From NCBI GenBank assembly GCA_900618795.1, contig UYJD01000009.1:751823-815822 (forward strand): a stretch of 64,000 nt of DNA. Direction: 5' to 3'. Below, piece by piece: positions 21,236 to 56,684 of this stretch (position 1 is its first letter; each line of letters starts with the position of its first letter). Source of the DNA: Cyanodermella asteris (Eukaryota > Ascomycota > Lecanoromycetes > Ostropales > Stictidaceae). The translations under genes were made by a program, and so were the position numbers. The notes under the pieces were generated by a model that had not been told where the DNA came from, did not search any database, and saw only the letters and a program-made list of their open reading frames with translations.

Positions 21236-22572
21236 CTATAGGCCTAAATCCGAGCTCAATTGTGCCAGGAAGCCGTCAGTAGTCGGCTTTCGGCTTGGAG
21301 GCGCTGCGGGACTATTAGCGTGTTTTCATTTCAATCATTGACGGAAACTCACGGGTGATCAGTCCTGAGACCGGTGGACAGTCGACGGATGAGTTCGGCT
21401 TCATCAATTGTATGTCGTTGGCTCTATTCAATGGCGTGGCGACTGGTCCAGATTCAGGGCCTTGTCCAACAGCCTCGAATTTGGCGCCACCGGTTTTGAC
21501 AAGATGCTCCAATCCTTGATGAACGCTCATAAAGACGTCCAGTTCCGGAACCGAGTGCAACAACACCAGCCCTGCCGTGCCCTGCCTGAATGCACGCATG
21601 ACGTTCACGATCCGATATGCACCCTGCATTTCGGCAGTAGTGACGTTGTCTGGAACCATGTCCTGTTGATCAAGGTCAAAATCGCTATCTACTCGATCGT
21701 GTCAGCACTTTCGACCTACAGAATCCGAGGACGCAGTCTCGAGGGGATGTCAGTGGCTGCTTACCTGTGAGACATACTTTCAGCATATCATACATCGGAC
21801 GATCGTGCACCGAACTCGTCTTCATCGACAACAAATTCAACGCCACCATGAATCGAAATCTAGGCTCGACCTTTGCGACAAGCTTCTCGATCATGTCTCT
21901 TTCATCCGCAACCATCTTCCATGACATACCGAACCAGTCGCCATTGCTCAGCTGCAGCCACCGAGCACACAACTGGTTAAACATATCCGGATTTCTGAAC
22001 TCGCCAAAAGCTCTAAACAAGCCCGCGTCAGCCAGTTGCTGAAACGAGAACGTGGCCGAGTGTCCCACGTGCGCAAGGAAGCTCTGAGCGGCATATTCAT
22101 GGCCGTAGTAGTCGTGACACAACGACCTGTCCGTCTTCTCGTCCAACTTCCAGTCCTTTAGGAGCTTTAGCATGGGCACAAACGCGCCTTCAATGCCCTT
22201 CGTATCGATCATGGTCAGGTAAGTGTGCTGGCTCACATCATGCTCGTGTCGCGGATTCGCAACCTTGTAGAGTCCGTGTTGAAGGACGAAGATGAGAGAG
22301 TTAGAGAGCGAGATGAGGGGGTCTTGGGGCCAGTTCCACCATCGGACGTGCGCTTCGATCATATTTCTCCTCCGGGAGGGGGTGAATCCGTCCAGAGTCG
22401 TGATCTTCTTGCCATTGCCGATTGCTGGGGATAGGAATCTGGTGGCGCTGTTGTCGCCGTTGGAGCCCGGGGACCAGGTCCTGAAGAGCCAGCGTGGTAT
22501 GTGATAATCATCCGACTTGTAGGGCCAAGGAACCATTGTAAGTGGGTTCGGAGGATCAATAATGTCGGTCAT
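21236..22572 (-). CDS. DUF7587-like protein
   Basis: Hypothetical protein. The start (IPRWLFRTWSPGSNGDNS, then LISLSNSLIFVLQHGLY) resembles the fungal DUF7587 domain, an ADP-ribosyltransferase-like fold of unknown role; this is recalled, not searched. Three exons are inferred: 22572-21778, 21662-21353 and 21303-21236, giving 390 residues. Intron 1 (115 nt) has GTATGT, GCTGAC and CAACAG. Intron 2 (49 nt) has GTGAGT, GCTAAT and CGCAG. If intron 2 is not spliced, the frame runs on to a stop at 21315 and the protein is 380 residues. The middle (LCHDYYGHEYAAQSFLAH, LQLSNGDWFGMSWKMV) looks well folded. The gene converges with ETF beta 62 bases away. Confidence 0.7.
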
Positions 22573-23027
22573 TTTGAAACTGGCGTCGAGTGCAAGCTAT
22601 GAGTAGATATTGACAAGATGTGGATGATCCCGACCTGAGTTTAATGTATTGTAAACATTGTTTAGCTGGTCCAGAAAGTGTGCATGGCGTAAGCAGTCAG
22701 TTGACATTGGCTTGATTGAGAAATTCACGCATTGTGAGTGTTATCTGCTTTTGTCACAACAAGAAGCTCGCGAGTCACGCTGAAACAACATCAACGCGGC
22801 TTCCCGAGAAGGCGCACCAGACAGAAATAAACATCGCTTTGCCGGACCGCACACATACCTGTAGGTACTAACAAAATGATCAGATGGAGGGTGATGCTGC
22901 TTTTGATCGGAAAATATGTGAAGCAAGAAACACGGGCAAGTTGGGTATTCTCACTAGTAGTACACCGCAGGCTGTGCGCAAAACCAGCACATGATATCTA
23001 TCACCGCCACCGCAGAACAAGACCCTC
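22573..23027. other. intergenic, promoter of the DUF7587-like gene
   Basis: 455 bases between the DUF7587-like start and the Vps17 stop. No open frame of coding quality and no repeats are seen. Confidence 0.4.
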
Positions 23028-29974: not shown

Positions 29975-31276
29975 TCATGCGGGCTTGCCAACGAAACTTG
30001 GCCAAAACAGCATTCGCTTTTCCGACAGAAGGTCCTGTCTATCTCTCCTGAGACTGGCTGCCGTGCTGGAGAACTGGCCGATGGCTGCATCCATGCTGCC
30101 AAGACCGTGTTCAGTCTCAATATTCTGGCCGAATGCATCGCTGTTGTTGTGCAGCACAAGAACGGCCGATGAGAACCTCATTGGAGGACTGTACAGATCG
30201 CCGGTGCCTTCAAACAGATGTTTCTTCGGCACTACCTGCACGTCCTGCTCTTGTAGCGCTAGCTTCAACAACTCGAGCGCCTCTGGACTCTCGAAGTCAT
30301 TGTAGGCGAAGATCCGCATGTTCTGCAGCCGTGTGGCAAGGGCAAACTCTCGCAAGGCGGCAACATAGACCAACAGCATCAACTCCCTGCCAATATGACC
30401 TAGAGCCTCGCGAAAGATCACTGCCGGGTCGTAAGTGTAGATATACCCTGTTTCGTGACAAATGTGCTCCAAGGCAGAGAATTCATTTTTGACCTGTTCC
30501 AGAACCACCAGGAACAGTGCCTCCAGCGAGAACGCTTCCTTTGCGAGAGGTCCGGATGGTGAAAGCCTGAATTTGCGACCTCTGACCACTTCTCTTGGTG
30601 CAGCGCTTTTGATCGCTTTCAGCAAGCAGTCTAGCAGCGAAGAATGCGTGAGAACTTCAGGATTGTGGGACCACTCCTTGAGATTCGACACTTGCAAAAG
30701 GCGGGTGAGCGTCAACTCCTTCATGGTCTGGTCCCAGTCAGCTACACTGCAGCCGGCCGTATTGACCATGTTTCTCGGCAGTATACGGTCCGCATTGGCA
30801 GAAGTCCGGGTCGGCCGTTCCAGCGAGCAAAACTTCCACATGACCTGTTCGTCTTCGAAATCAGGATGGATCATGCAACTGACAATGACACGACGGGCGG
30901 ATTGCGTGCGTGGATTGCGACGAAAAGGCTTGACACGATGGCCATTGCCGTAGTAGTAGTCGCCATGCATATGAGCCAAAACTATCGGGATCACGAAGGA
31001 ATGCAGCATGCCCTCCATGTTAGTGATTTTATTAGTTCCGCTGTTGGTACCGGCCGTTGACTTGATGGCGATGGCAGTGTCAGCTTTGTGCCTCATGAGA
31101 TGTTCAATCATCTCAGGCGAGATGAACGCGCTGCTGCTGATCCACGGAGCTGGCGCATAGGCCTTGTGATTCAGCCACCATGCTCGCGCCTCAACACCGA
31201 CAGGGACGAGCGTATCGACAACTTCACTGGAGTTGATGGTCGCTGGTAGAGCGTCAATTGCCGTCATGGCTGGCAT
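29975..31276 (-). CDS. hypothetical protein with weak SRR1-like C-terminal region
   Basis: Single-exon frame of 433 residues starting MPAMTAIDALPAT. The C-terminal third (REFALATRLQNMRIFAYNDF..., EALELLKLALQEQDVQVV, then LFEGTGDLYSPPM and SAVLVLHNNSDAFGQNI) follows the order of the fungal SRR1-like domain: an aromatic-D-x-x-F segment, a leucine helix, a beta strand with VV, then a statement-of-value strand. The match is by eye and weak. The N-terminal 180 residues include HKADTAIAIKST and HMHGDYYYGNGHRVKPFRRNPR, not recognised. SRR1-like proteins are of uncertain role, linked to clock and heme regulation in other organisms. Confidence 0.55.
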   Translation of the reverse strand: MPAMTAIDALPATINSSEVVDTLVPVGVEARAWWLNHKAYAPAPWISSSAFISPEMIEHLMRHKADTAIAIKSTAGTNSGTNKITNMEGMLHSFVIPIVLAHMHGDYYYGNGHRVKPFRRNPRTQSARRVIVSCMIHPDFEDEQVMWKFCSLERPTRTSANADRILPRNMVNTAGCSVADWDQTMKELTLTRLLQVSNLKEWSHNPEVLTHSSLLDCLLKAIKSAAPREVVRGRKFRLSPSGPLAKEAFSLEALFLVVLEQVKNEFSALEHICHETGYIYTYDPAVIFREALGHIGRELMLLVYVAALREFALATRLQNMRIFAYNDFESPEALELLKLALQEQDVQVVPKKHLFEGTGDLYSPPMRFSSAVLVLHNNSDAFGQNIETEHGLGSMDAAIGQFSSTAASLRRDRQDLLSEKRMLFWPSFVGKPA

Positions 31277-34200
31277 CGTGCTGTTCGATGGTCCGGTCCG
31301 GCCTATATTTGAGCGCGATCACCTGACAATGACAGTCCTCACAACACCGTTATCCCTTCTTCTACATGAGGTTTTGCCGCGTCTGATTGCAGCACTGATA
31401 AGATGCCCGCTGCAAGTCTTCGAAGATCTGAACATCAAAAGTCAAAAAGCACGTCAACCCCTAATACACGTGACAACATCGCCTGAGTCACAAACAACTC
31501 GCAGTTTGACACTGGTGATTCATGAGAAGGAGCTCTGCTTACAAAGTGATAAGAGCGGGGAGAATGGTTGTCAGCAGATTGGAGGGGACATGTAGGCCGA
31601 CGCGCGCGCCTTATTACTGCCTCTTCCGGACAAGCGCGGTGTTGCTGCCTCAGAGCCGCAAGACCGCGGCAGATTCACAAAGGCCACTTGCATCACGTTG
31701 CGAATTCCAGATGTGCTTCAAGGTGCGATCATCGAGAACGAGGGGGCACATTGATAGATGGCGCAGAATACGGTGCGCTAAGTCCGGCAAGTGGTACGAT
31801 TGTTTAATTGATTGAGTTACGGTTCACAAGGCAAAGTTTCAATTATGAAGCTCATAAATTGCCACAAAGACATGAGCTTAGGTGTGCAGGATTGCAACTT
31901 GCTCGAAGACGACTGTGTTGTATTTTGCTTCATTCATCATTTGAAAATCCAAGTTTCACTGGAAAATGCTTACAAATCGAGTCAATTGCAGAGAAAATAA
32001 AACAGATGATCCCCGATTCCTCAGACGGTCAAACTGGACTCGGCAAACCGTCGTAATGTGTAAGGAGGACAGGGAACGCGCTTGATGTTCGATGCTAAGC
32101 AACCTGTGTTTCGTATCCCTATGTCGGAGGTTGATAGGGCATCCATTCGCGATGCGAAGTCCTGTGAGCGTCAAGTATAAGCCGCTCCTGGCCAAGAGGT
32201 CTTTTTTGAGCCATCGCAACACTCTGAACATGGATCTGCCTCACTCTACTTCATTGTAAGCGCTGGACGTGGCAAACTGTGGAGCTTCTGAATTTATCAA
32301 TCACAGTGAGTAACGCCGATGACGTGCGTTCTGTGGACGACCATTGAAATAGGACAGTAAGCTGTCCAGAACGTTACTCCAGTAATGGCCGACACCCGAT
32401 CCTTTGCAAACAAGGTTGGAGATCATGTGGCTGGATCTGGTACTCTATCATCGCACCAAGACTGAGCTGCTCAAGACGACATTTCACGAGCGTTCACGAT
32501 AAAGGCAAAGCGCGAAGGATCACAGGCAGCTAGTGCAAACTCCACCACCTCCACGCTCGAGCTTGATTGGGATAGACAAGCCCACCTCTAATCTGACATG
32601 ATCACCTGCAGCAAGCAGCCAGGAAAATCAAGGATTGAGGATGCGCCGTCACCGTGCCGCCCGGAAAAGCAAGCTTAGATGCAAACAAGGTTCACTACGA
32701 CAGTCAGATGTGATCGATTATTGCCCGCTTGCCTGGCGTTGGTATCGCAGCCATTGGGGTACCCTCTATCAAGTCACATGATTGAAAGACGCTGCGGCCA
32801 CCCGCAACACCGTGGCCAGTCGCTGGCCCGGGATGCCGTTTTGAACTATCTTTGCCGCCAGATGCCAGGCCCGAAGGATTCAATCGCCGCGCTGTGTGGC
32901 ATCCATCACGAGCTCCGCGCCGCCCATCACAGCTTTCACAGCACACGGGAATGGTGGTGTGGATCCTGCGGGCCAACCTGGATGGAGTTGGAAATACGAT
33001 GCGGAGCTGTTCTTTGTGTCTACCAAGGTGCCCCGTTCATGCATGTTGACGGCACAATTGGCGCATCGGGAGACGAGTTGGAACCTTCTCAAGCGATGGA
33101 AATGCTAGGCGAGCACGTTATGGTCTTTGCAACATGTTTCTAAGCGGATTTTCTGAGTTTCCCCACGTCCATGGATCTGAGCATGCAAAGGATCTCTAAT
33201 GGTTCTACATGTGCATAGGCCTGCTTGGTCTGTGTTTCCGAAGAGTCCCTGGCCTGTGTCAGACTGTCGGATAACGTGGACATGATGAGGCCCCTGCTTA
33301 CTTTGACGTGTATTCCTGTGGTCAATTCAAGACCTTGCCACTGGCCGCGATATGGCCAACTAGTCCTCTCCAGTCGTCCTAGGCAGTCCTGTCTGCCTGG
33401 CAGCAGCCATGGCTCGGCAGGGCGAAGCTGTTTGAGATCGCCAATGGACTGACACTGATGGTGGAGATGTTTGGGGCCTTTCCACTATTTACGGCATCAG
33501 CAGTTGGAAGCATCGTGGTCTGATTGGCGGCCGATGACCCCGCAAGCGGCCTGCTGCTGGCGAATCACCGCCCACCCTCAGCACAAGCTGGCGGCTACCG
33601 ACCGCCAGCAGCCTCGCTAGTTTTGAACTTTTGACGTGAATGGCCGATGACGGCTTTCTGCAGTGATGGAAGAGAAGTCTGACGGAGATGTGCGATATGC
33701 TCCCATCCGATGCCGACAAGATAAAGTACTTTGGAGGCAGTCGACGTCCAAAGTACCTGCGTGTTTCTGCTTGATGTCTTGCTGCACGCGACAAAGGTCT
33801 TTCTCGAACACTTCCATGCTGCTCAGGCGAGACGGAAATAGGAGCGGACGCTACGGGCCTCACTGACGGGCTCACCCTGCATGAACCGGACTGCTGAAGC
33901 TGACCTTGCCACGAGAGCGCGATGCGCTGGCAGAAGAAACAGCGAGTCACAGGCCCGAAACAGCGGCCTCAAGCCGGCTAGAACGGGCACAACTGTGCAA
34001 CTGGCTGCGATGTTGGTGGGCGGCCTCCCCCGGGCTCGACCAGAAAGAATGAACCAGAGTCGGGGACGAGTGAGCCTCGAAGGCCTCATCGATCGCCGCC
34101 GCCGCCTCGGCACAAATCCAGCAACGTCTGCCATTGGCCTCGAGCGTCAGCATTGCCCACCAGGCCGTTTTGCGCCGGCCTGCATCCTTGCGGACCATGC

Positions 34201-35903
34201 GGACCTCGCACTGGCTACTTTACGACAAGAGGTCGCGGCCGTTGCTGAGATCGAAGTCGTCCTGCAGCAGTCTTTCTATTCGTTGCTCTCCTCCGACGTC
34301 CTACTTTAGCAGCCTATCGCTTGCCTTGCTTGCCACATCTTTTGTTGACGCCGCTGAGCTGCTGCTGATAATTCTTTTGCTTTCCATGCAAGTCTTGCCA
34401 ATTTTCATATGACAGACGGCCCGGCCGGCCAGTCAGGACAGACTTGGGCCTGTGCGTCGACGATTTTTCGACGCGTCCATGCCTCGTTCTCCGCGTGTTT
34501 TCGAGCATTGGCCGAGGAAGGTACTTTGCATGACTGTTGTGCTCCCGTTGGCTGCTCTCTTGGCAAATCATGGCCATGCCCACGAGAATGCTGCATGGTG
34601 CAACGACGATCCCGCTGCCACTGTGGCATCGAGAAGGCCGGTTGAAGCACCAGTCGCAGAGGCCAGGCTGGAGGAGGCCAGCTCACGCGGCCGACACGTT
34701 GTCGATGGCTTCACTCCTCTGGCCAGTGTCGGAGATGGGTGGCGAGCGCTTTCCACTGGCCGCGAAGTTTGAGAAATGAGCGAGCTGGCCGTTGGAGGTC
34801 GTTTCATTTTGCGGAGCCGGTAGAGGACAGAGTGTGGGCCCCAGGGGGCTGATATTAGCTCTTGGTCCTGGAGTCTCACGCTCAGCAAGATCCGTTAGCC
34901 CCCTCGAGCGGCAAGCGGCCGGGATCACCACGCTTCGTCAACCAACGCCCGCGTTTGCGAGCACATCTACAGCATGCGGAGCGTGAGCTGCGCTTCCGCG
35001 TCGGCCCAGATCCCCCCACCCAAGCAATGGGCGATGCCTCGTCGATAGTGATATCTAGCGCGTCTTCATGGAGGGCGGCTTCTGGTCGTGAAGCGGCGCA
35101 TCGTGCCCAAGCTGCCATCCGTCGACCACACCTCCCTATAGTAGAGCTGTTGCGACGCTTTCATTCCCTCCTGCATGCTGCTTATCCCATCGTCTGCCTC
35201 GCCCTCTCCCGCAACTGCGTCCTCTCTGTTTCTCCTTCTGTCGTTTTCGCTCGCCTGTCTGCAACGAACATACACGTCGGTCGCAAGACCAGCTGAGAAT
35301 TCGGCACACTAACCGACATTTGCAACGCTACCGCTCTCCTGCCCGTCCACTAACCCAGAAAGATCGGGGACACCGCCGTCGGGCAGCAGCCGGCAAGTAC
35401 CCGGCCAGAACGACGTCAGTCGAAGCAGTGGCGGTGTGTATATCCTCGGTCTCTTGTTGCTGTTTGGTTTGGCAAGTCCAAGACGAGTGGCGGTGCAGCT
35501 GGCGAACAGCGCACCACACGAGCGCCCCAAAAATACCATAGCCAGACACAAAAAGTCTAGCTTTGTACTCGTGCTTCAGTTCGAGCGGCTTTATTCATTT
35601 CAGCCGCAGGCGCATTTCTTCATTTCCGTCATACTGAGCGGCCTCACCCTGGTTCCGACTCACAAACACCCCGGACCGCCTCAGCTTTCGCAGCCCGCCG
35701 GGATGGCCATGCGTCACTGACCGAGACTTTGTTTCAGCAACTCCGTACGTTCCTGAAAGATAGCCTGGGTCTATCCTTGCTGCCTTTCGCTGCCCCGGCT
35801 GACCGCGCATCGTTCGACCCAGGCATTACCTGATACCGACTCGCTCACTCGGTTCGGCGCTGCGTGATCACAGCCGCACGCAAGAACCTTGCACGACTCC
35901 ACC
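31277..35903. other. long gene-poor interval ahead of the methyltransferase-domain gene
   Basis: About 4.6 kb with no frame I can support on either strand. The first kilobase is the upstream region of the 31276 gene. From about 33.1 kb the base composition becomes more GC- and CT-rich, with many short upstream ATGs. The last 2.5 kb probably holds the promoter and a long leader of the next gene. No transposon ends, RIP-like AT-rich tract or RNA gene were seen. Confidence 0.5.
33726..33756. repeat. perfect 10-bp inverted repeat
   Basis: GTACTTTGGA at 33726-33735 is mirrored by TCCAAAGTAC at 33747-33756 around an 11-base spacer containing GTCGAC. It could be a hairpin or a site for a dimeric regulator. 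Confidence 0.85.
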
Positions 35904-38900
35904 ATGGCTTCCCGCATATTACACAGCGGGCCGTCCAAGTCGTCTTCCGGCGACAAGAAGACGCAGAGCGCACTCCCACGCCCGAGCGCTGCAAAATATC
36001 CGTCTTCGTCTACTGCCGCCGGCGCGGCTTCGACCTCGAGTAGGCTTCCTACGACCACTGGCTCCAGTCTATTCGGGAGGGGCAGAGGGAGAGAGAAGGA
36101 GAAGCAGGCCGAGAGAAGTGTCACCACTGTTGCGCCAGGCCAAGCTGTCAAAAACTCTCCCGTCGACGATGCCGTTCCATCAACAAAGTTGAGCCTAAGT
36201 AGGACGAAACCCTCTCCCGACGAGCGCAAGCCAAGCCCATCTTTCGGTCTCGAAGCTTCGAGGATTGCTCAGACAGGCATGGGTTCTGTTGCGGAGGGTG
36301 GAAGTGAAGTGTCGAACTCGGAGCGTCCTATTCAGCCGAGAAGGTCGTTGAGGAGGAAGCCATCCCTGACTGGTGCCTATGAAAAGTATACGAGTAGTGA
36401 GACCTCGGATGCGGGAGGCGAAAGTCGATCGGAACCAACGAGGAAAGTGACGGTAAGCCCTGGTGGTCACAGAGATCCATACCCTGGTTCGATATTCGGC
36501 ATTACCGTGTCGCCACCAACTGCTACTAGCAATACTTACACCCCCATCTCCAAACCAGACTACTCAACGCCGACCGAATTCCAGACGTCAAACTCCCGTA
36601 TGGAGCTCTACATGTCAAAGCAGCTGCCTCACAAACTGTCTACGCAAAACCTACCACCTCCAACCCCTAACCATACCAGCACGGCCAGCGCACAGGAGAT
36701 GAGCAGCGCCTCCAGCCGGTTGACTTCCACGCCGAGTCCCTTCAGCCGGATTTCCACGCCGGCTACGTCTGCAAGCGCCTACTCTCCTGGCGTTCAGCCG
36801 ACCCCTAAGCTTACACCACCCAGGCAAAGACCTACAGCAAGTCCAACGCACAAGCGTCCTCCGGTGTCTCTGCGAAGTCGAAAGCTTCCTGCCAGCACTC
36901 CGGTCGAGGCTTCAAGCTCACGGGGCTTGCCAAGCGTGCGCGAAGCTTCTACTGGCAACCAGTCTTCGTCTTCGAGTTCGAACTCGACGGTCCGCGCGTC
37001 GGAAATGATCGATGCGCATACTGGTGTTGTAATGGGCAAGCCGTCACGTCTTGACTCAAAGCCGGCTCCCACGGCGCCTTTGAGGGTCAGCTCAAGGAGA
37101 CTTCCAAGACCGCCGCTTGCGGGCGCTTCAGCCACCAAAGAATCCGAGGATGAGGCACAAGATGCATCAACTGGTGTGGTTCCAGAAACTCGCTACCAAA
37201 GCCGACTTCCCATGGGCGGTGGCAACGGAGGATTCAGAAGTCCTCCGCCATTGCGCCCCTCGCGGCAAGGAACTCCTCGCCTGTCAGCGCTCGAGCAGAC
37301 AGAAAGCCCCGTCATTCAGAGCAATCTCAGTCATATCGCTACTACAGGTCACACTCGACGGGAGTCTATTGAGAATGCTGCCGCTCTTGCTGAACATGCG
37401 GAGACGGCCAGCCCCCGCAGGAAGCTTACCAAGACGCCTCCACAGGGCAGCGCATCAATCACCTCTCCCCACCTCTATCCCACCAGAGCACCTTCGAAGA
37501 ACCGTGAGATTCCATCGCTGGTCAACGACATGCCTCGGACCTCGAAACGGGATCCCAGTCCGGCTTCATCGGTTTCTACAAGCAGTTCGAGGTCCCGCTT
37601 TGGGCTGTTCTCACGCAAGCCTAAGGTGCCGGAAGAGCCGGTGCCGTCCATTGCTCGCAAAGGTCCTGCTGCGGGTACTGGGCACGAAGGCTACGGCAAG
37701 CATGGTCGAGCTACGCGTGGACGATCTGGCAGCACCAGCAGCTCAGGAAGTCGCGACAAGTCTGCTGGCTCTGCGGTCTCGGAGCGAAGCACATCGACAG
37801 GAGCCGGAGCTGCGAAGAAGCGTCAAAGCAGCATGACCAGCAATGATGGCAACCGGCCGAACTTCGAGGACGACTTCTTGTCTCAACGGTTGCAGCCAGT
37901 CGTCATCAGTGGTGGAGGTAATATCAAAGCCAACCGCAACTCGGCGACATTGGCGAGTGCTCCCATGTATGCTTCGTCTAGCGCCCAGAGCAGCAATGCC
38001 AGCTTCGCATCATCTTCTGAAGGCTACGGTGGCAAGGCTACAGGCGTCACTAGTAGCCAGTCCAGTACCAGCATGACAAGCACCTCTGCTAGCGACAAAC
38101 GGGCCAGTCGATCGCTGCTTCCAGCCCCGAAACTCACTTCGTCTCGCTCCCTAGCAGGGGTCCAGCGTTCTTTGGCGCATCGGCGATCGCAGCAAAGAAT
38201 CTCTCAAGGCGACCAGAACGTACGGATCCCGGCTCCAATCAACACCGCAGTCTCCACTTCAAAACCCGCACTCGACACCATCGATACCGCACAATCTGCT
38301 GTTCCAGAGACAGGTAGTGCCATGCTTACCGATGACATCAACGAAGGCATGTGGTTGCGTTCTGGTGCCTCCAAGGAAAAGAGCAAGCCCAAGCTCAAAT
38401 CTCCCCGTCGCTGGAACTTGTTCTCCAGAGCGAGGAGCAGGAGTCCGAAGAAGAGCACCTCCGTCTCTGCGACAGAGCCAATGCCTCTTCGGACACCTGC
38501 CTCGGTTGCGGAGGTGCAATTGCCTGCCAAGCCTGACAATTTACGCCGCGCGAAGGTCGGTGGTCACTATGGAATGTTGGACGATGAGCCGACCGATGAC
38601 GAGGCGCGGAGTATGGACAACGTTCTCAGAGACATTGAAGACGAGCTCGAGCTCAGGGACGAGGAAGGCGCGATTGTAACTGGTCGTCAAGAAGAGGACA
38701 TACCCGGGCCTCGACAGGTCAGCATGCTGTTGCCCAGCCCCCCGAAGCTGACAAGCGAGTTTCCGAGACTGGAACCGACCATGAGTCAAGACGAGCCTGC
38801 GCAAGGTACGCTCGAGCGACGACCCAGTCGACTGCAGCGTGTTGGACGTATCCCGACCTCGCACGCTCACAGACCCAGCCAAGGCAGTTTCTCGAGACCC

Positions 38901-40727
38901 TTCACGGGTGAGGACAGGCCTAGCTTGGAGGAGACCCGGCCAGAGACAATCTTGGAGACGGAAGTGGCAGCGGCTAATCGCAAACCTCGCCTTGCTTTGC
39001 AGACAGACAAATTGCCAACAACCACTGTTGTTGAGCAGTGGCGTCAAGCTACCTACGCGCCAGCGCCTCCAACTAATGCTTTCCTGCACAATCTCGATGG
39101 TGAGAAGGAATTCCTTTCATTTCCTGCCGAGCGTCAAATCTCACAAACATCAGGAGACAGCAGTTCTGGCAACACTAGCTTCATGAACATGATGGCGAGA
39201 CGTCCCTCGGGGCAAGGCGACGACGAGGTATGGAACGAGTACGACGACATTCTGGAGAATGAAGAGCAGCCGTTTTCCCTCCACTCCCCAGAAGGTGAGG
39301 AAATGCTTAGCGCTTTCCCACTTGCGCCAGTCTCACGAAGCCCCGACAAGACTCCTGAACCCCTGCGAGCTGCATCGAGACAGAGCGTCAACTCCAGAAA
39401 GTCAAGCAGTCCACCTGTGCCTGAGAAGCCCGACTATCTTGTCGTTCCGCCTCAGCTCCACCCAGAGACCAATCGACTCGTCGGCAAGAACACCTTGTCT
39501 GACATCTATTCCGACTATAACCGCTCGAGTATGGGTGAGAATAGGCGCAAGCGTGCCTCAGACTCTTCGAACATCTCTGGTAGCAGGTACTCCAGCCAGA
39601 CAACCATCTCCAGCTCATCGCATGTCTCGACCTATGCACCATCTCTGATTAACCAGGTCACTCGCGCCATGGCTCGCAAGACTCACTCCGCAAGAGATTC
39701 CTTGCGTTTCTCAGCGTTGATGACATCGCGGTGGCTCTCTTTCGACCGTGTACTCTTCAGCCCTGTCGCCGAGGATATACTGTCGCTCGCAATCCAAGCG
39801 CCTCGCATTCTCATTCTTGATGGTCTTGCCAACGATGACTGGTCTGCATATACTGCGCTATCTTATCCCAATGCTACGGTCTGCAACCTCTCCACGACTC
39901 CCAAGCTCCGTACGCCCTCACCCCATGGCGACGAGTGGTCAAATCCACCTAATCACAAGCTCTTGCCTCTGCCTTCCATGGCCCATCCGTTTCCCTTTCC
40001 GAAAGGCTTCTTTGCTGCCGTCGTCCTACGATTTCCACCTCTTCTCCCTCAACACCATCTCGCAAACGTGATAGGAGAAGCAAAGCGCGTGCTACGCCCT
40101 GGCGGATTCTTGGAGATGACACTGCTCGACATCGACCCAGTAAACCTTGGCCCCAAGACTCGCCGCGAAGTCAAGCGCGTGAAGATGCGTGCACAAGAGC
40201 GCATGCCGGACGCTGGTCTCGCTCCGGTGGCCGACTCCGCGATGAAGCTTCTTGGCCGCCGACAATTTGAAGGTCTCAAACAGGCAATTGTGGGTGTCCC
40301 GGTCGCGCACACTCCAGATGATGCTGCTCTACAAGCTCCTGGGCCACTTCCGTTTAACGAGGAACGCGTGTCTGGTAGTGGAGAAAATGAAGGCGAGAGA
40401 CCGAGCCGAGCTCTAGCAGATCTGCTACGCGAGGCGGGTGAAGATAGTGGTGCAGGAATCGCAGCGCAATACCCCGTGGCTCAGACCGTGAGCCGCGTCG
40501 CGAGATGGTGGTGGAGCAGATGCTACGAGGGAATGTCAAGCACCGACGGGAATGACGAGAGAGGAACATTGTTGGGACTCAGAGGGAGAGGAGAGGACGA
40601 CTCGAGGAGCATGTGGGCGGATCCAGCAGTGATTCGCGAATGCCAAGAGCGAGAGACGAGTTTGAGGTTGGTTTTGGCCTATGCGGTCAAGCCCATGGTC
40701 ATCAGGCGAAGGACCGTCAGCGTCTGA
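35904..40727 (+). CDS. large disordered protein with C-terminal methyltransferase-like domain
   Basis: Single exon, 1607 residues from the ATG in ACCATGG context (MASRILHSGPSK). About the first 1270 residues are Ser/Pro/Arg/Lys-rich and predicted disordered. Embedded short conserved-looking motifs include two copies of an R-x-x-LFSR-x-x-x-x-P-type sequence (SRFGLFSRKPKVPEE and RRWNLFSRARSRSPKK). From about residue 1270 the protein becomes globular: WLSFDRVLFSP, APRILILDGLANDDWSAY (a degenerate SAM-binding glycine loop), YPNATVCNL, FFAAVVLRFPPLL and AKRVLRPGGFLEMTLLDID. The last block is the class I SAM-dependent methyltransferase (type 11) pattern. The substrate is unknown. The degenerate motif I leaves open whether it binds SAM. 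Confidence 0.8.
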   Translation: MASRILHSGPSKSSSGDKKTQSALPRPSAAKYPSSSTAAGAASTSSRLPTTTGSSLFGRGRGREKEKQAERSVTTVAPGQAVKNSPVDDAVPSTKLSLSRTKPSPDERKPSPSFGLEASRIAQTGMGSVAEGGSEVSNSERPIQPRRSLRRKPSLTGAYEKYTSSETSDAGGESRSEPTRKVTVSPGGHRDPYPGSIFGITVSPPTATSNTYTPISKPDYSTPTEFQTSNSRMELYMSKQLPHKLSTQNLPPPTPNHTSTASAQEMSSASSRLTSTPSPFSRISTPATSASAYSPGVQPTPKLTPPRQRPTASPTHKRPPVSLRSRKLPASTPVEASSSRGLPSVREASTGNQSSSSSSNSTVRASEMIDAHTGVVMGKPSRLDSKPAPTAPLRVSSRRLPRPPLAGASATKESEDEAQDASTGVVPETRYQSRLPMGGGNGGFRSPPPLRPSRQGTPRLSALEQTESPVIQSNLSHIATTGHTRRESIENAAALAEHAETASPRRKLTKTPPQGSASITSPHLYPTRAPSKNREIPSLVNDMPRTSKRDPSPASSVSTSSSRSRFGLFSRKPKVPEEPVPSIARKGPAAGTGHEGYGKHGRATRGRSGSTSSSGSRDKSAGSAVSERSTSTGAGAAKKRQSSMTSNDGNRPNFEDDFLSQRLQPVVISGGGNIKANRNSATLASAPMYASSSAQSSNASFASSSEGYGGKATGVTSSQSSTSMTSTSASDKRASRSLLPAPKLTSSRSLAGVQRSLAHRRSQQRISQGDQNVRIPAPINTAVSTSKPALDTIDTAQSAVPETGSAMLTDDINEGMWLRSGASKEKSKPKLKSPRRWNLFSRARSRSPKKSTSVSATEPMPLRTPASVAEVQLPAKPDNLRRAKVGGHYGMLDDEPTDDEARSMDNVLRDIEDELELRDEEGAIVTGRQEEDIPGPRQVSMLLPSPPKLTSEFPRLEPTMSQDEPAQGTLERRPSRLQRVGRIPTSHAHRPSQGSFSRPFTGEDRPSLEETRPETILETEVAAANRKPRLALQTDKLPTTTVVEQWRQATYAPAPPTNAFLHNLDGEKEFLSFPAERQISQTSGDSSSGNTSFMNMMARRPSGQGDDEVWNEYDDILENEEQPFSLHSPEGEEMLSAFPLAPVSRSPDKTPEPLRAASRQSVNSRKSSSPPVPEKPDYLVVPPQLHPETNRLVGKNTLSDIYSDYNRSSMGENRRKRASDSSNISGSRYSSQTTISSSSHVSTYAPSLINQVTRAMARKTHSARDSLRFSALMTSRWLSFDRVLFSPVAEDILSLAIQAPRILILDGLANDDWSAYTALSYPNATVCNLSTTPKLRTPSPHGDEWSNPPNHKLLPLPSMAHPFPFPKGFFAAVVLRFPPLLPQHHLANVIGEAKRVLRPGGFLEMTLLDIDPVNLGPKTRREVKRVKMRAQERMPDAGLAPVADSAMKLLGRRQFEGLKQAIVGVPVAHTPDDAALQAPGPLPFNEERVSGSGENEGERPSRALADLLREAGEDSGAGIAAQYPVAQTVSRVARWWWSRCYEGMSSTDGNDERGTLLGLRGRGEDDSRSMWADPAVIRECQERETSLRLVLAYAVKPMVIRRRTVSV

Positions 40728-47430: not shown

Positions 47431-47834
47431 TGATGAGGTCAAGCGAGGGAGGGAAACACGGCGTGTTCACGTGAGAGGGTCCTGTTTTCGCGTCCGCAGC
47501 CAGCCTCTGTACGAGCCAGTCTGATCCATACAGTAGTAGCTTGCTGCGTCTCTTTCTAGACGGTGTTTCATGTCTCTTTGAGCTGTCCCGAAGGGATTCT
47601 AGCTGTCGGTCTGAGCTGAAGTTGAAGTCAGATAGGCCGCACTGATCATGATCCGCTCCGTGAACTTGACCCACTTGCTTTGGTAAGGCATGCCACTTCG
47701 ACCACAAATCAGGAGACTTTTCGACCTGTTGCTTCAAATGTGTAATTGATCACCCTCTCCCAAGCCATCACAAAAGTGTCGTCAGTGACAGAAGCCAGAC
47801 AGCTGTCTTTACAGTCTACCGCCCAGCCAACGGA
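47431..47834. other. intergenic ahead of the UPF0303 gene
   Basis: 404 bases, probably holding the promoter of the 47835 gene. A minus-strand open frame covers part of it but lacks an ATG and any recognisable motif. Confidence 0.35.
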
Positions 47835-48389
47835 ATGGCTCTCAGCCTCCCAGAAGTTCTCCCAGAAGTTCTCCGCGATCTCGATGCCATCGCTAAGCAG
47901 GAGGACGGAGTCCGCTTGCCCAGCTTCACCTCAAACGACGCTTATGAAATCGGCACTGCCTTGCGCAATGATCTGATGCGTTTGTCGTCAAATCCGGCCG
48001 TCGTCAACATCGCTCTCGCGAATTCCAACCAGCTCCTGTTCCATGCGACAACGCATTCCGGTACGGCCCCGGACAACGATATATGGGTTGCCCGCAAGCG
48101 CAAAACCGTCCTTTGGTGGGGCCATAGCTCATGGTACATGCATGTCAAGATGAAAGGTGACGAGGCTGCTTTCCGGGAAAAGTATGCACTAGGTAATGAC
48201 GCGGGGACGTACGCAATTCACGGAGGGGGCTTTCCTGTCAGGGTTTCAGAGGTAGAAGGTGTTGTTGCAGTTATTGTCGTTAGTGGACTGAAACAAGAAG
48301 AAGACCATGGCATTATTGTGGCCGTTCTGAAGAAACATATCGAAGAATCGAGGGCTACAGCCTCACAAGCTGCGTACGTAATAGGATAA
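47835..48389 (+). CDS. UPF0303 / HbpS-like (GlcG fold) protein
   Basis: Single exon, 184 residues. It has the family layout of yeast YBR137W-like proteins: an N-terminal helix with DAYEIGTALRNDLM, the strand VVNIALANSNQLLFHATTHSGTAPDN, then WVARKRKTVLWWGHSSWYMHVKMKG and the C-terminal GVVAVIVVSGLKQEEDHGIIVAVLKKHI. Relatives bind heme or act as small decameric scaffolds; a yeast member is tied to tail-anchored protein handling. A tandem 12-bp duplication at 47847-47870 gives LPEVLPEV near the start. It converges with the NLR gene, with 93 bases between stops. Confidence 0.85.
   Translation: MALSLPEVLPEVLRDLDAIAKQEDGVRLPSFTSNDAYEIGTALRNDLMRLSSNPAVVNIALANSNQLLFHATTHSGTAPDNDIWVARKRKTVLWWGHSSWYMHVKMKGDEAAFREKYALGNDAGTYAIHGGGFPVRVSEVEGVVAVIVVSGLKQEEDHGIIVAVLKKHIEESRATASQAAYVIG
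47847..47870. repeat. tandem 12-bp duplication in a coding region
   Basis: The unit CTCCCAGAAGTT occurs twice in direct tandem and in frame. It repeats four residues (LPEV) at the start of the UPF0303 protein. Confidence 0.9.
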
Positions 48390-48482: not shown

Positions 48483-51400
48483 CTACCCATACCGATCCTG
48501 TGACCACTTTTGATTCCACTGAGTCTGACCCGCCTGTCCACCCTGGCCCGGCCGCGCCTCCCACTGCTGGCCATTCGTAGGTCCTTGAGCATATTGTCCA
48601 TTGGAAGGTCCCTGAGCATATCGCCTTGCTCTGCCCCCGCCATACTCCTGATCCTGATACCAACTCGTCTGCTGCTGCACCGGATAGCCTTGATTCGGCT
48701 GAGACGCCTGATTCAGCTGGGGTGCTTGATTTGCCTGGTACGCTCGGACTGGTGGCATCTGACTCGAAGGTCTCCGCTCATATTGTGGCGCCCCATAACC
48801 CTGGTCTAACGACTGCCTGACCGGACCTTGACTTGAAGGCACCGGCGCAGGCGGCGACTGGTATCCCGAGCCGCGCAAGGGAGGTGTCTGAAGTGCTGGT
48901 GGTGTGTGAGCCGGAGAGTCGCTTTGGCCGGATGGGGCTCGAACTAGGGGTTTGCGAGCGATCGGACTTGGTTTGCGTTGCTCTGGTAGAAGGGGCGATT
49001 GTGCTGGTGGTTGGGTTCGAGGATAGGCGTTAGGAGGTGACGGGATTCGTTCTTGCAAGGCAGAGCCTTGGGTAGCTGATGGGTTTCGAGGGTAGCTGTT
49101 CGAAGGTGGTTCGGCTTGTCGAGGTTGGTCTAGCCACGGGGCATCGCCGTAGCCTTGACCGTCGTAGGAGCTATAGCTTGGGATGGACCTCGCGGTTGAT
49201 GCTTGATTGATCATGCTGTACCTCAGCCCTTCAGGTATCGTAGGTGGAGGCGGTGCTCGAGCTGTGGTTGGAACTGCTTCGGGAAACTCAGACTGCACCG
49301 GTAGCTGTCTTGAGTTCTCGATGGGTTGAGTGGGTGGCTGATCTGTACTTTTGGGAGGCGATGGTAGGTCTGTAGTTGTGACGACTGGTTCATTCCCCGG
49401 GATGTCCTCAGCTGGTGGTGTTGGGTAGCCCTGAGCCGGCTCCTGCTCTCCATCGTTGCTGACTGACTTCTCGTAGTCGTTGTTGTCCATCGCACTTTGG
49501 TCATCTTCGTAGCTGAGATCGACACTGCCGGCTTCGATGCCCCACTCCTCCTGCACCTTGTGTAACCATGCAGTCAGAGTGAGACTCTCTGCGCCCTCGC
49601 GCTCCCAAGTCCCTTCGATGATCTTGCCACCATGTAGCACAACACCCCCGGTAGCGGTGTCTCCAGGAGAGTCCTCCGCAAGCTCTGGCCATTCTGGGAC
49701 GTACAGCCAGCTATGATCCTTGTCGCAGATATGGCGTTCTATAGTCCCAGCTTTCAACTTTTCCAAACAAGACTCACAGAATATTGTCCGGGGACAGCTC
49801 CGACAGTGCCAGAAGCTGTCTGCATGATCCCAGTCGGTATTGCATCTTCCGTTACAAGCCCACTCAAAGACCGACTCATAAGGCGCGCATTGGGACCAGG
49901 CACTCAAAGCCATGGCATCATTACCCAGCTTCAGATATATCTCGGCAAGATCCGCGCACTCGGCGCCGTCTAGCTCTGTCGTGTATTGAAGAATTTCTGT
50001 CATCATCGGCTCGAAGATTTCAATCGCTTTCGGTCCTTGTTGCGTTTTCGTGTAGTAGCTGACCAAGTACGTATGTAGATTGAGGTTATCGATGTCTCGT
50101 TGTTGCTTGCGCGTCAAGTTCTCGAGTTCAGCGACGTGCCAATCGGAGTTTTGCTGTCCCGGCGTAAGCGCTTTCTTGAAGTGATATCGTTGCACTACTT
50201 CAACGGCCCAGTCAGTGGCCCCGAAGCCACGGAAATCTTGATGGCCCAAGATTTCCAGACTCTCACGCCAATAGTCGTAGGCTCTGTTCAGTCCCTGTGG
50301 TGTTGGATCTTGGAGAGCTGTCAGGATTCCCTTGTGCAGGCGGAACGAGGCGATTTCGTATCTCCTCAGATTTTGCAAGTCCTCGGGATATTGAATTGCT
50401 TGGTCGAAGGCTTCGAAGGCCAAATCATATAAATATGTGCGCTGGATCAATGGAAAGATCGTCTCAAACAACGTCACGGCATCCGGGCCAACAAGCGTCC
50501 GGAAAAGTGACACTAGTCGGGAGATGGACGAGTCTCCATCTTTCTCCGTATGCATGCTTCTGATAAGCTCTGTGACGTGCTCTGTGTCGGCAATATCGTC
50601 GTGGAGGCGCCAGAGCTCGAAGAGGTCTTTATAGGTATCATCGTGCGAAGGGTCCAGGCCCAGAACCTCTTCATACAAATCTGCCGCCATGCCAGGGTCA
50701 TCCAAGTTCTCGCTGTACCAGCATGCCAATGTTCGGCAGCTATCTATGAGGCCTGTTTGTTGCCCGTCCGTCCGATCTGGTATCTGACGCATCAAAATCA
50801 AAGCCTCGTTCATTTCGCTGACCGCCGCAGAATAATCCCCTTTACCTGCAAGAGCCCGGGCCATACTCTCTTTGATCGTGTAATTGAGATTGCGCTCGTC
50901 TTCCGGAACTTCGTTGAAAGTATCGATAGCCTCGTCATACAAGCTCTTGAGCATATAGGTCTTCCCGAGGCGAGCATGCCACACGGCATCTTTGTTGGTA
51001 GGGTTCAGGCCATTCTCCACCCACTCTGCAGCACGAGCAATGCGCTTCTTCATTGAAAGAGTATTAGCTTTGGTTCCGTCTTCATCCTCACCGTCAGCTT
51101 CATCGCCCTCTTTTCCATCGTCATCAGTCGTTTCGTCAGCTACGCTCTTATTTCCATCTTCATCTTCGCCGCCGTCGCTGCTGCTTCCGTCATCTGTGTC
51201 TGCCTCTTCTGCTTCACTATCAGAGCCGTTGTCATACTCCCAATCTTCATCCTGCTCATCTGCATCCTGCTGACCTGAGGTGTCTCCAAATGAGTTCTCT
51301 TCGTCAAGCCAAGAGTCCAGCCAGTTGAACAGAGGCAGCACGTCCCAGCTATCACCTTGTAGCCACTGGCGTCCTATCTGTAAAGTCAAATCATAATAGC

Positions 51401-53999
51401 AGTAGACTGGTCCGGTGCTACCGACCAACCTGTGCAGGGTGCGTCTGTCGCGAGGGCCAAGGTCATGTACCAGGTCGCGCGACGCGCGCTGCAGGATCTC
51501 ATGAACGGCAGAGACGGTTTTGGAGTCCAACCACACATCAACGACATTGTAGTAATTCGCCCAATGCTGAATGGTAGTATCCACTTCTGTCAGAACTTCG
51601 ATAAGCCGAGTCACCAACACCTTCCTGTCATGGATCTTTTCGTAATTCTTCGCAGCCCATCGGATGTGATATGGGAGATGTTTTGTTGCCCATATTGCAA
51701 GCTCTTTCGTGCTTTCCTTCGGCTCTTCACATAGCAACTTGAGACACGCATCGAGTATCGTCGCCCGAGAATCTATCAGATTCACATGTATCTTGCTGGA
51801 ACTCTGTGTTCCGGTGAGTGGGGCGTTGAAGAAAAACGGGTCGAAGCTCGCTCGCTCGGAAAGATCCCAGAGAAACCTTCGGACGGAATCCGGTTTTGCG
51901 TTGTCAATTTGAATAGTGAGTGTGATTCTTGGTTCGACGTTCGAAGCTTGCCTGTTGTCCACGACGGCTGCTTCTTCCTCTTCGTGCTTCCGCATGGCCG
52001 TGAAGAAGTCTACAAGCTCGGGCCTTACGACCACGAACTCTTCAACGTCCTCCCCGAGGTTTTCAAGCATGAGAACTCGACCAAAAATGTCCTTGTCGTT
52101 GATTTTCATCTTGAAAGACTGTGCTGCAGTCTTCTTGGTGGAAATTGAAGAGATGATGTCGACTTGCTCGATGGTGAGGCGAGATTTCGTGTCAGGGTGA
52201 AGGCCATAGATAACCCATTTCAAGATTTCGTTAAGTTGATCAATGTCATGCGGCTTGAGCTGGGTATTGAGCTCGTCAAGGGTTCTTTTGGCTATCTTGT
52301 TATGATCTCGTTCGGGTGGCTCGTCCAGCATGTGGTCGATATCTTCCAAGTCAGTTCTAGGGTTCTTCAACGCATCTTTGACGGCATCAAGGCGACTGAT
52401 GGCCAACGGAAAGTCACCATCGGCTGCCGTGGCGATCTTGTACTTGAATTGTTGTGCGCGATCCGGGTGCGAGCTAGTCAAACTCTTGAGCGAGCGATCA
52501 ATTTGCATCTCGCGATCAATGTACATTTCCACATCCTGATTCTCGGACTCGGACATGTCAATGGTTCGCAAGAGGGCGTGGCGGCTCAGGGTCTCCTGTG
52601 TACCTGTTGCCAGGATACGTAACTTTGTCGTAGCAGTTGAAGCGGACGCATTTGAGGATCCGAGTCGTGGGTTTGCGAGAATGGCCAACAGAGCTTCAGC
52701 AGTGGCCTCAGGGAGGACCTCCAACCCATCGAATATCAGCACATAAGTGTTGTCCGCTTTCCCAGAAGCAAAGCGAAGCTGGTTCCACAGATCTTCCAAC
52801 GTTTCGGTCTTTCGGTCACTTTTGCTTTTCGAACCTCTCGTCTGAAGCACGCTGCTAAGTTCCTTCAAGTACGTTCGGTTGTTCTCCGCGATTTGGAGCG
52901 CCATACTCTGCAAAGCAGTCCTCAGGGCCGGATGGTCTGGGTTGTTGGAATCTCTGCCCGCAACGTCTTGTTTGTTGAACATGTATACAGCAGACAGGAC
53001 CTTGTTGTTCTGACTCGTTGATTCGAGGTCATCAAGTATCGTCGGAATCAGGTGTGTTTTTCCAGATCCGCTTCTGCCACTTATCATCAAGAGAGGATGG
53101 ACGGATGTTCCATGGTCCCGCCACTGCCTGTAATATTGATTGTGTTGAAGCCAAGCGCCAGTACCTGGCAGGCACTGTTGTCGCGCAGAAGCGAGGCGAG
53201 TCTTCTGGATTTTGTCGTCTTCACCTCCCAAAAGATCCCGCTTGACAGCCTCCGTCAGTTCCTTGTTGGAGTCTTTTGCCTTGCGATCCGACGCATCAGT
53301 GACCAGAAAGTCCACGTCGTCCCGAATGTGTTCAACCACCACTTTGGTTCCATGGCCTAATTCATGATTCAGCGTGCTGTAGAGGAGATTTTGGCTCTTG
53401 CTCAACTTCTCAAATTTCGTGATCTCCTCTTGGATGCCCTGGTCCGTATCACCGAAGCCAGCTCGCAATGAGATCTTGACCTTGCCCCATCGTGATGCAT
53501 TTAGAATCTTGTAGGTCAGAGCTATCATTCGCACAAAGCAGCATAGCATCTGGTGGGTGTTCACTCGTAAGCTCGGATCCAGCTGTGCCACGGTTTCCAC
53601 CCTGACCAAAATTTTGTTCTGGCTGATAATATCTTGGATATTATCGAACAGGTCCGCAATGCTCTCATAGACCTGACTGATCCGACTGGGCACGGCCAGT
53701 AGAAAGGCAATTGCCGAGAAGCAACCTTTGGCACCGGCGAAAGCATCCTCTGCACCTGCGCCTGCAACCGAGGCCAGCGTGCTGATGCTATCAAGCAATT
53801 TGTTAATCTTTTTGATCTTGCTACGCTTGTCCTCTTTGTCCTTGCTGTTGTAGTCGGACTCAAGCTTCTTGGCCAGATCTTGCAGGCTCACGTTCGCGTT
53901 TTCTTTCAAATCCTTCCCAACTTGCCTACGGAAGTCTTCTTGGGCCTCTTGCCACATTTCCGTGATCGTGAGGTCGACTGCATTGCCGGCGCGCGCCAT
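48483..53999 (-). CDS. NOD-like receptor: Goodbye-NACHT-TPR-ZZ with long Pro/Gln/Tyr-rich tail
   Basis: Fungal STAND NTPase of 1838 residues in one exon from ATG 53999. Residues about 10-165 match the fungal STAND N-terminal Goodbye domain (ITEMWQEAQEDF, VPSRISQVYESIADLFDNI). The NACHT core has Walker A GRSGSGKT (308-315), Walker B YVLIFDG (419-425) and a sensor-like KLRILATGTQ. A winged-helix-like region leads to about residue 890, then a strongly acidic linker (about 899-976). TPR-like helical repeats run about 985-1375 (KTYMLKSLYDEAIDTFNE). A zinc finger follows (C1382, C1386, C1399, C1402, C1408, C1411, with H1423, C1425, H1429). After residue 1500 comes a 340-residue Pro/Ser/Gln/Tyr-rich tail. 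Such proteins are thought to sense non-self or pathogens and trigger cell death or immunity. The ligand is unknown. Confidence 0.88.
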   Translation of the reverse strand: MARAGNAVDLTITEMWQEAQEDFRRQVGKDLKENANVSLQDLAKKLESDYNSKDKEDKRSKIKKINKLLDSISTLASVAGAGAEDAFAGAKGCFSAIAFLLAVPSRISQVYESIADLFDNIQDIISQNKILVRVETVAQLDPSLRVNTHQMLCCFVRMIALTYKILNASRWGKVKISLRAGFGDTDQGIQEEITKFEKLSKSQNLLYSTLNHELGHGTKVVVEHIRDDVDFLVTDASDRKAKDSNKELTEAVKRDLLGGEDDKIQKTRLASARQQCLPGTGAWLQHNQYYRQWRDHGTSVHPLLMISGRSGSGKTHLIPTILDDLESTSQNNKVLSAVYMFNKQDVAGRDSNNPDHPALRTALQSMALQIAENNRTYLKELSSVLQTRGSKSKSDRKTETLEDLWNQLRFASGKADNTYVLIFDGLEVLPEATAEALLAILANPRLGSSNASASTATTKLRILATGTQETLSRHALLRTIDMSESENQDVEMYIDREMQIDRSLKSLTSSHPDRAQQFKYKIATAADGDFPLAISRLDAVKDALKNPRTDLEDIDHMLDEPPERDHNKIAKRTLDELNTQLKPHDIDQLNEILKWVIYGLHPDTKSRLTIEQVDIISSISTKKTAAQSFKMKINDKDIFGRVLMLENLGEDVEEFVVVRPELVDFFTAMRKHEEEEAAVVDNRQASNVEPRITLTIQIDNAKPDSVRRFLWDLSERASFDPFFFNAPLTGTQSSSKIHVNLIDSRATILDACLKLLCEEPKESTKELAIWATKHLPYHIRWAAKNYEKIHDRKVLVTRLIEVLTEVDTTIQHWANYYNVVDVWLDSKTVSAVHEILQRASRDLVHDLGPRDRRTLHRLVGSTGPVYCYYDLTLQIGRQWLQGDSWDVLPLFNWLDSWLDEENSFGDTSGQQDADEQDEDWEYDNGSDSEAEEADTDDGSSSDGGEDEDGNKSVADETTDDDGKEGDEADGEDEDGTKANTLSMKKRIARAAEWVENGLNPTNKDAVWHARLGKTYMLKSLYDEAIDTFNEVPEDERNLNYTIKESMARALAGKGDYSAAVSEMNEALILMRQIPDRTDGQQTGLIDSCRTLACWYSENLDDPGMAADLYEEVLGLDPSHDDTYKDLFELWRLHDDIADTEHVTELIRSMHTEKDGDSSISRLVSLFRTLVGPDAVTLFETIFPLIQRTYLYDLAFEAFDQAIQYPEDLQNLRRYEIASFRLHKGILTALQDPTPQGLNRAYDYWRESLEILGHQDFRGFGATDWAVEVVQRYHFKKALTPGQQNSDWHVAELENLTRKQQRDIDNLNLHTYLVSYYTKTQQGPKAIEIFEPMMTEILQYTTELDGAECADLAEIYLKLGNDAMALSAWSQCAPYESVFEWACNGRCNTDWDHADSFWHCRSCPRTIFCESCLEKLKAGTIERHICDKDHSWLYVPEWPELAEDSPGDTATGGVVLHGGKIIEGTWEREGAESLTLTAWLHKVQEEWGIEAGSVDLSYEDDQSAMDNNDYEKSVSNDGEQEPAQGYPTPPAEDIPGNEPVVTTTDLPSPPKSTDQPPTQPIENSRQLPVQSEFPEAVPTTARAPPPPTIPEGLRYSMINQASTARSIPSYSSYDGQGYGDAPWLDQPRQAEPPSNSYPRNPSATQGSALQERIPSPPNAYPRTQPPAQSPLLPEQRKPSPIARKPLVRAPSGQSDSPAHTPPALQTPPLRGSGYQSPPAPVPSSQGPVRQSLDQGYGAPQYERRPSSQMPPVRAYQANQAPQLNQASQPNQGYPVQQQTSWYQDQEYGGGRARRYAQGPSNGQYAQGPTNGQQWEARPGQGGQAGQTQWNQKWSQDRYG

Positions 54000-55608: not shown

Positions 55609-56684
55609 CTATAACAGGATGAGGTAGTTACTTGGTGCAATACCAGTGCTACCGTTCTCCTTCTTGGCCTGCCACCAGCGGCCGGATACGTCACTGACCT
55701 CAAGAATCTCGTGCTTTTGAAACGAGATCTCGTTGGGGTCTGATGGATTCGCGTCGTAGCTGTAGATGGCCTTGGCACGGTATGGGTATTCGACCTGCTC
55801 GCCTTCCATTGGCGCTCCGCCGAAACCGCCTCCAGTTGTGTCTGGCTGTTGTTGTTGAGGGGGTGGTGGACCAAAGCCTCCGTTCATTCTTGGTGACTGA
55901 GGGCCCGGTGACATGCCTCTCGACACACCCATGGTTCCTGGGGGATATCCAGACACCGTTGGGCTGGAAGTCTCGAATCCAGCGAGCTGTTGTGAAGTGT
56001 AGAGATTTTGTGTTGCCGTCTGAGGAGGTGGGCGGTTGAAGTTGGGGTTCAAAGCGGGAGAGTGAGAGATGGGACGCGAGTTCATTGACTGGCGTTCTTT
56101 GTGCAAAGCAAACGAGTCAATGGTCTGACGGTGGGCAGCCTGCGGGTTGCTGCCAAAGTAAAACATCCAGACAGCCTGCGAACTTGTTAACGGACGAATC
56201 AAGGCGGCACAAAATCATGGGACATACAATGATGATGCTGAGAAGGATGAAGCCTGCAGCCGCGGCTTGTTCCTCATGGCCGACCTGGTATACAAGCGAG
56301 CTGACAGCAGAAGTACTGTAGATGAAAGCAATTGCCAAGAAACCGACGATGGCAGTCTGATAGACTTCGGTTGTTGCACTCGCAGTGGCGATGATTATAC
56401 CAATAATGACGAGGATCATATATGCCGTCGTCCACCACAGGAAGTTGGGATATGCGCCAGCGGGCGAGTTTGTTGTCGCCTGGTATGAGTTCTTGATCTG
56501 ACTGAGAATACCTCCGACTAAAGTGATGAGCCATGCCAGGATAGCCAGGGATATCGTCGCCAAAGCAAAAGGGTCACCGAGAATGTGCCCTCGTCAGAGT
56601 CAGCTTGATCCATTGACCGAGGGTGAAATGGGGACCCAACGACTTACCAATGCTGAAGGACGGCGCGCGCCGTGACCTGTTCAT
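55609..56684 (-). CDS. SHO1: high-osmolarity sensor Sho1
   Basis: Plasma-membrane osmosensor and scaffold of the HOG MAP-kinase pathway, binding Pbs2 through its SH3 domain. Three exons are inferred: 56684-56648, 56589-56228 and 56175-55609, giving 321 residues. Introns are 58 nt (GTAAGT...CTGAC...GAG) and 52 nt (GTATGT...TTAAC...GCAG). Exon 1 supplies [13 protein letters not shown], continuing [13 protein letters not shown], the family's conserved start. Four membrane spans lie in residues about 24-140 ([56 protein letters not shown]...VWMFYFG). A Pro/Gln-rich linker leads to the SH3 domain (about 262-321) with [19 protein letters not shown] and [23 protein letters not shown]. All expected parts are present. 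Confidence 0.94.

Follow-up and report, generated by a model that had tools for sequence, protein, structure and literature searches.

The 64,000-nucleotide stretch of Cyanodermella asteris contig UYJD01000009.1 analysed here (positions 751,823 to 815,822 of the forward strand; hereafter the window) carries on its reverse strand, at 48483..53999, the gene of a protein that, judged by its sequence, is a fungal NOD-like receptor (NLR) of the STAND family, typical of a large known group and somewhat uncommon in its tail. A single frame of 1838 codons joins a Goodbye domain, a NACHT module with its Walker motifs, a TPR-like segment and a zinc-finger-like cluster. The product is probably an all-in-one receptor in which a nucleotide switch leads to a Goodbye-driven response, most likely regulated cell death. 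The role of innate-immunity receptor, put forward for it in the initial annotation of the window, would follow from what is known of its family.

The gene is real and unbroken. Its open reading frame starts with an ATG and contains a single stop codon at the end, an in-frame stop precedes the first ATG, whose context is CTTGCCGCCATGG, and an intron-free reading suffices to obtain the 1838-residue product. When the window was simulated 30 times with a first-order Markov model, the longest run without a stop had a mean of 250 codons and a maximum of 310, versus 1838 in the gene. The relative synonymous codon usage of the NLR correlates with that of four core genes of the window with r = 0.85 in frame and between 0.16 and 0.59 in the five other frames. 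The listing of open reading frames, the simulations and the codon usage all agree with the intact 1838-codon frame described initially. Repeat-induced mutation is usually judged by thresholds on the TpA/ApT and CpA/TpG ratios, and no sign of it is seen in the NLR, since both ratios resemble the values of the whole window.

At the N-terminus, where an effector or signalling domain is expected in a fungal NLR, the protein bears a Goodbye domain (53613..53954 on the reverse strand, residues 16-129). In the Pfam scan of the whole protein this domain matches PF17109 with an E value of 7.2e-22 and 78.5 bits (cut-off 24.8) over profile positions 1-118 of 120. It is followed by the expected NACHT-type P-loop NTPase core (52671..53165, reverse strand, residues 279-443), matched by NPHP3_N PF24883 over exactly these residues with an E value of 8.7e-20 and 72 bits against a cut-off of 24.8. 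AAA_16 narrowly exceeds its own cut-off in this core, and the NACHT model PF05729 falls narrowly short (26.4 bits, cut-off 26.7). Walker A and Walker B are both intact. The former, GRSGSGKT at residues 308-315, is the sole G-x4-GK[ST] match in the protein; the latter, LIFDGLE at residues 421-427, is the sole match to what we take to be the NACHT form of the motif, a looser pattern fitting also at residue 822. A motif marking the NAIP-type NACHT is given in PMC12258605. A search of the whole protein found no occurrence of this motif, so the NTPase is placed by default in T-NACHT, the common TLP1-like type.

Other collections added little. A search of PDB sequences with residues 280-560 returned one chance-level match only (E 0.55), and the six NCBIfam matches all lie far under their cut-offs. 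A bacterial-defence identity was considered and rejected: PADLOC gave 3 weak matches, read as shared P-loop sequence, the best of them being mads_8 (E 0.0011, 16.5 bits), located at residues 302-387 around the P-loop. Structure predictions from the single sequence, with a mean predicted local distance difference test score of 36.0 for residues 1-275 and 45.4 for residues 975-1450, are too low in confidence for use beyond the mostly helical character that they assign to both regions.

The NTPase region is separated from the C-terminal half by a stretch without a Pfam family match (residues 675-985), which includes an acidic low-complexity linker (51066..51305, reverse strand, residues 899-978) recognised by its charge and its self-similar acidic stretches; the net charge across residues 881-960 is -30. 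Next comes a helical TPR-like segment (49866..51053, reverse strand, residues 983-1378, limits judged), delineated from TPR profiles and an all-helical model of low confidence. TPR models remain below cut-off in the whole-protein scan, and the superstructure-forming repeats expected at the C-terminus of a fungal NLR attain it only when residues 975-1450 are scanned alone. In that scan TPR_2, TPR_7, TPR_8 and TPR_19 pass, two with a margin of 0.2 bits; no individual stretch passes by itself for the first three. By these profiles the TPRs are degenerate. No highly conserved repeats (identical in more than 85% across 100 residues or more) were found in the DNA of the NLR, and the best ungapped 34-residue self-match within residues 681-920 and 986-1440 scores 27, whereas 200 shuffles average 28.5.

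The repeats are followed by a ZZ-like zinc finger (49713..49856, reverse strand, residues 1382-1429), called so on the basis of its Cys/His spacing and of a distant sequence match with the ZZ domain of BIG, a plant protein. The cluster noticed in the initial annotation is real: 7 of the 18 Cys of the protein fall in residues 1382-1425, and when the protein was shuffled 20,000 times the spacing did not occur once, under a pattern that was written after the spacing had been seen. When the 86-residue piece 1365-1450 was used as phmmer query, three PDB sequences appeared up to E 10, all of them plant BIG and the best being 9lgr with E 0.0029; that match has E 0.16 when the whole protein serves as query. 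In Pfam, residues 1382-1429 have no ZZ match up to E 1 and a FYVE match below cut-off (E 0.022), and no zinc-finger model attains cut-off there. Taken together, the Pfam profiles bear out the Goodbye and NACHT-type modules of the initial annotation, recover its TPR-like repeats through the four models of the segment scan only, and do not return its ZZ finger.

In the alignment of this finger with the BIG ZZ domain (PDB 9lgr), a domain of the type of p62 and PRT1, the Cys residues coincide, and so does the WHC..CP....C..C core. The two sequences differ in the Asp that follows Cys in the C-D-G-C of BIG, which is Asn in the NLR, and in both Asp of the BIG C-P-D-F-D-L-C, replaced by Arg and Ile. 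These may be the positions to which the substrate-binding Asp pair of p62 and PRT1 maps. If this mapping holds, binding of N-termini in the manner of p62 and PRT1 is unlikely for the finger. Reading of N-degrons was considered because the solved relative turned out to be the BIG domain, and it was set aside, the aligned positions not being Asp (under this putative mapping) and the matter being unsettled even for BIG. In p62 and PRT1 the Asp pair, named in PMC11668491, binds the amino group of the substrate, and N-degron reading by BIG itself is still to be determined according to the same source.

The protein ends in a Pro/Gln-rich tail of about 360 residues, probably disordered (48486..49562, reverse strand, residues 1480-1838), which is defined by composition: the last 399 residues include 60 Pro and 47 Gln, and Pfam recognises no family within residues 1436-1838. 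Such a tail is undescribed in the fungal-NLR literature surveyed, a weak negative given that the tail was not searched by name. Its only direct repeat of at least 24 bases is a tandem 27-nucleotide pair at 48568-48621, 85% alike, which by eye encodes two near-identical nine-residue units; Tandem Repeats Finder reports in addition an 18-base array (76%) at 48689-48731. Binding of the tail to the SH3 domain of a SHO1-like protein encoded nearby was considered and discarded, as the patterns [RK]xxPxxP and PxxPx[RK] are both absent from the entire protein.

STAND proteins share a standard activation cycle. Applied to this NLR, the resting protein would carry ADP in its NACHT module and would be held closed by the C-terminal helical segment together with the zinc finger. 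Binding of a ligand or of an altered host protein to the C-terminal part would allow the exchange of ADP for ATP, and the ATP form would oligomerise via the NACHT module. The N-terminal Goodbye domains clustered in this way would then perform or initiate the response, for which regulated cell death is the likeliest form. Nucleotide switching, oligomerisation, C-terminal sensing and the cell-death output are all proposed by analogy with the family. In fungal NLRs, Goodbye-like domains rank with the commonest N-termini (PMC4986451, PMC9815663, PMC10197012), and their four-helix core is described as shared with, or related to, the MLKL/HeLo cell-death domains (PMC9815663, PMC10197012).

The surroundings of the gene were explored by a Pfam scan of 27 of the 38 stop-to-stop frames of at least 200 codons in the window and, outside the NLR, of four pieces that are shorter or partial, one of them belonging to a frame scanned earlier; the 11 remaining frames are the NLR itself and ten that overlap scanned frames. 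Matches at E 0.01 or better were obtained for 15 of the 27 frames, including an acetyltransferase-like one at 7899-8762 that lies below its own cut-off, and 12 match nothing. The families recognised comprise ArfGap, diflavin reductase, THO2, VPS34, electron-transfer flavoprotein, elongation-factor GTPase, PX and Vps5-type sorting-nexin pieces, a Zn2Cys6 regulator, an NAD-binding protein, a bicarbonate-type transporter and a glutathione transferase. The Zn2Cys6 family and the Goodbye domain agree with a fungal origin of the window. Among the frames and pieces scanned, the closest gene recognised upstream of the NLR consists of two frames resembling exons of a SHO1-type osmosensor (55609-56593). 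Its SH3 piece matches Ssu81, which we take to be yeast Sho1, with E 2e-19, and the frame upstream of that piece appears by eye to span the membrane and has no Pfam match that exceeds its cut-off. From the end of the SH3 frame to the start codon of the NLR the distance is about 1.6 kb, with short frames in between. On the other side, an HbpS-like gene of the haem-degrading type (47670-48389) stands tail to tail with the NLR, 93 bases from its stop codon.

Farther away, a DUF7587-domain protein is encoded amid core genes at 21688-22596. The 1619-codon frame at 35868-40727, Ser/Pro-rich by eye, is probably a real large protein; as a whole it has no Pfam match, and its C-terminal 575 residues show a methyltransferase trace below threshold (E 0.029). 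The roughly 4.5 kb at 31320-35860, between this frame and that at 29975-31318, contain only frames shorter than 200 codons.

Several observations weigh against a cell-death receptor of the immune type. A winged-helix or helical third domain is possible after the core (51930..52247, reverse strand, residues 585-690, limits judged) from its position and the reading of the sequence, and no winged helix was detected there, residues 540-720 being without Pfam match. The helical repeats appear to have no internal conservation, so that a feature characteristic of the rapidly diversifying sensors among fungal NLRs is lacking; the diversifying selection initially suggested for these repeats is for this reason unsupported by the sequence itself. 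The recognised neighbours, with the SHO1-like gene, THO2, VPS34 and the diflavin reductase among them, appear by their families core rather than accessory in character, and no transposon, HET or second NLR family was matched among the frames and pieces scanned, which leaves the accessory neighbourhood initially claimed without support. As to published work, nearly identical, fast-changing repeats are borne by a part of fungal NLRs (PMC4986451), and for Goodbye-like domains, which have an extra N-terminal extension, cell-death activity is said to need further experiments (PMC9815663).

Some of these observations give substance to the main rival, a conserved STAND protein that evolves slowly and regulates stress or secretion, in which the switch would serve physiological signalling and not immune sensing. 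This is unlikely, and yet it agrees with neighbours of core type, among which a SHO1-like gene is the closest one recognised upstream, and with repeats that are degenerate and not internally conserved; the acidic linker and the Pro/Gln-rich tail could moreover act as a scaffold. A precedent is the knock-down of Ncp in Penicillium herquei, reported to reduce ionic stress tolerance and cell-death features as well as unconventional secretion (PMC13311144). However, the Goodbye-NACHT layout is common to families proposed to act in cell death, an immune role is compatible with core neighbours, and Ncp, for which NACHT alone is listed in the available text of PMC13311144, may belong to another subfamily.

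Somewhat more doubtful still is a narrower proposal, in which a conserved, non-hypervariable STAND switch would report an internal physiological state of the cell and in which the ZZ-like finger and the Pro/Gln-rich tail would form a distinct sensor and scaffold module. Osmotic or secretion stress is one candidate for that state, in view of the neighbouring SHO1-like gene and of what is reported for Ncp. If true, this would be a fungal NLR serving housekeeping and not defence. A gene of heterokaryon incompatibility (allorecognition), whose alleles, differing in the C-terminal half, would detect after cell fusion a partner protein that is itself polymorphic, is improbable: several fungal NLRs act in this manner (PMC12881547), but this one lacks near-identical repeats able to shuffle, and no partner gene of a known type occurs among the frames scanned. 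A chance frame or a decayed pseudogene, for which no supporting point was found, is already contradicted by the length of the frame relative to the simulations, the core-like codon usage, the intact motifs and the window-like dinucleotide ratios, and has virtually no chance of being correct.

The interest of the preferred reading, a Goodbye-driven receptor, comes from the fact that fungal NLRs are numerous and their ligands mostly unknown, and that Goodbye, among their commonest N-termini, is without a proven activity. An intact gene of the Goodbye-NACHT-TPR-ZZ-like kind in an apparently core neighbourhood constitutes a usable test case. Current views are left unchanged by the sequence of this NLR alone.

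All parts recognised in the protein are known ones, and the way they are combined is uncommon at most. In fungi Goodbye often accompanies NACHT, while published examples exist both of NACHT followed by TPR and of a ZZ finger next to repeats, each a minority layout. In Sordariales, 729 (90%) of the Goodbye-like NLRs are T-NACHT, and the zinc fingers of NLRs include 17 ZZ (PMC12258605). The same survey describes 16 zinc fingers adjoining canonical repeats, all treble-clef, and the commonest pairings of nucleotide-binding and C-terminal domains, among which T-NACHT/TPR does not figure in the available text, account for 2990 of 3104 repeat-bearing NLRs (PMC12258605). TPRs are reported to follow a small fraction of NACHTs (PMC4986451). 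Outside fungi, no confirmed relative was found in viral or prokaryotic contig collections, which says little on fungi; the patterns, derived from short peptides of one sequence, gave 1 match (viral) and 10 (genome contigs) for the whole protein, 0 for residues 975-1450 (viral) and 19 for residues 1-560 (genome contigs).

Among individual systems, Ncp of Penicillium herquei is likewise a fungal NACHT protein tied to cell-death features, differing in that NACHT is the only domain listed for it in what is available of PMC13311144. Fungal NLRs with a C-terminal ZZ-type finger share with the NLR described here a finger beside C-terminal repeats, putatively of the treble-clef type in the latter, whereas the Pro/Gln-rich tail that follows the finger here does not appear in their description as available (PMC12258605, Fig. 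7). The closest layout is that of the fungal Goodbye-like/T-NACHT NLRs (Dyrka 2014, PMC4986451; Wojciechowski 2022, PMC9815663; Bonometti 2025, PMC12258605), with which it has in common the N-terminal Goodbye domain, a NACHT core with Walker A and B and C-terminal helical repeats; in those proteins, as described, the repeats that come after T-NACHT are usually ankyrin or WD40, and here they are degenerate and TPR-like.
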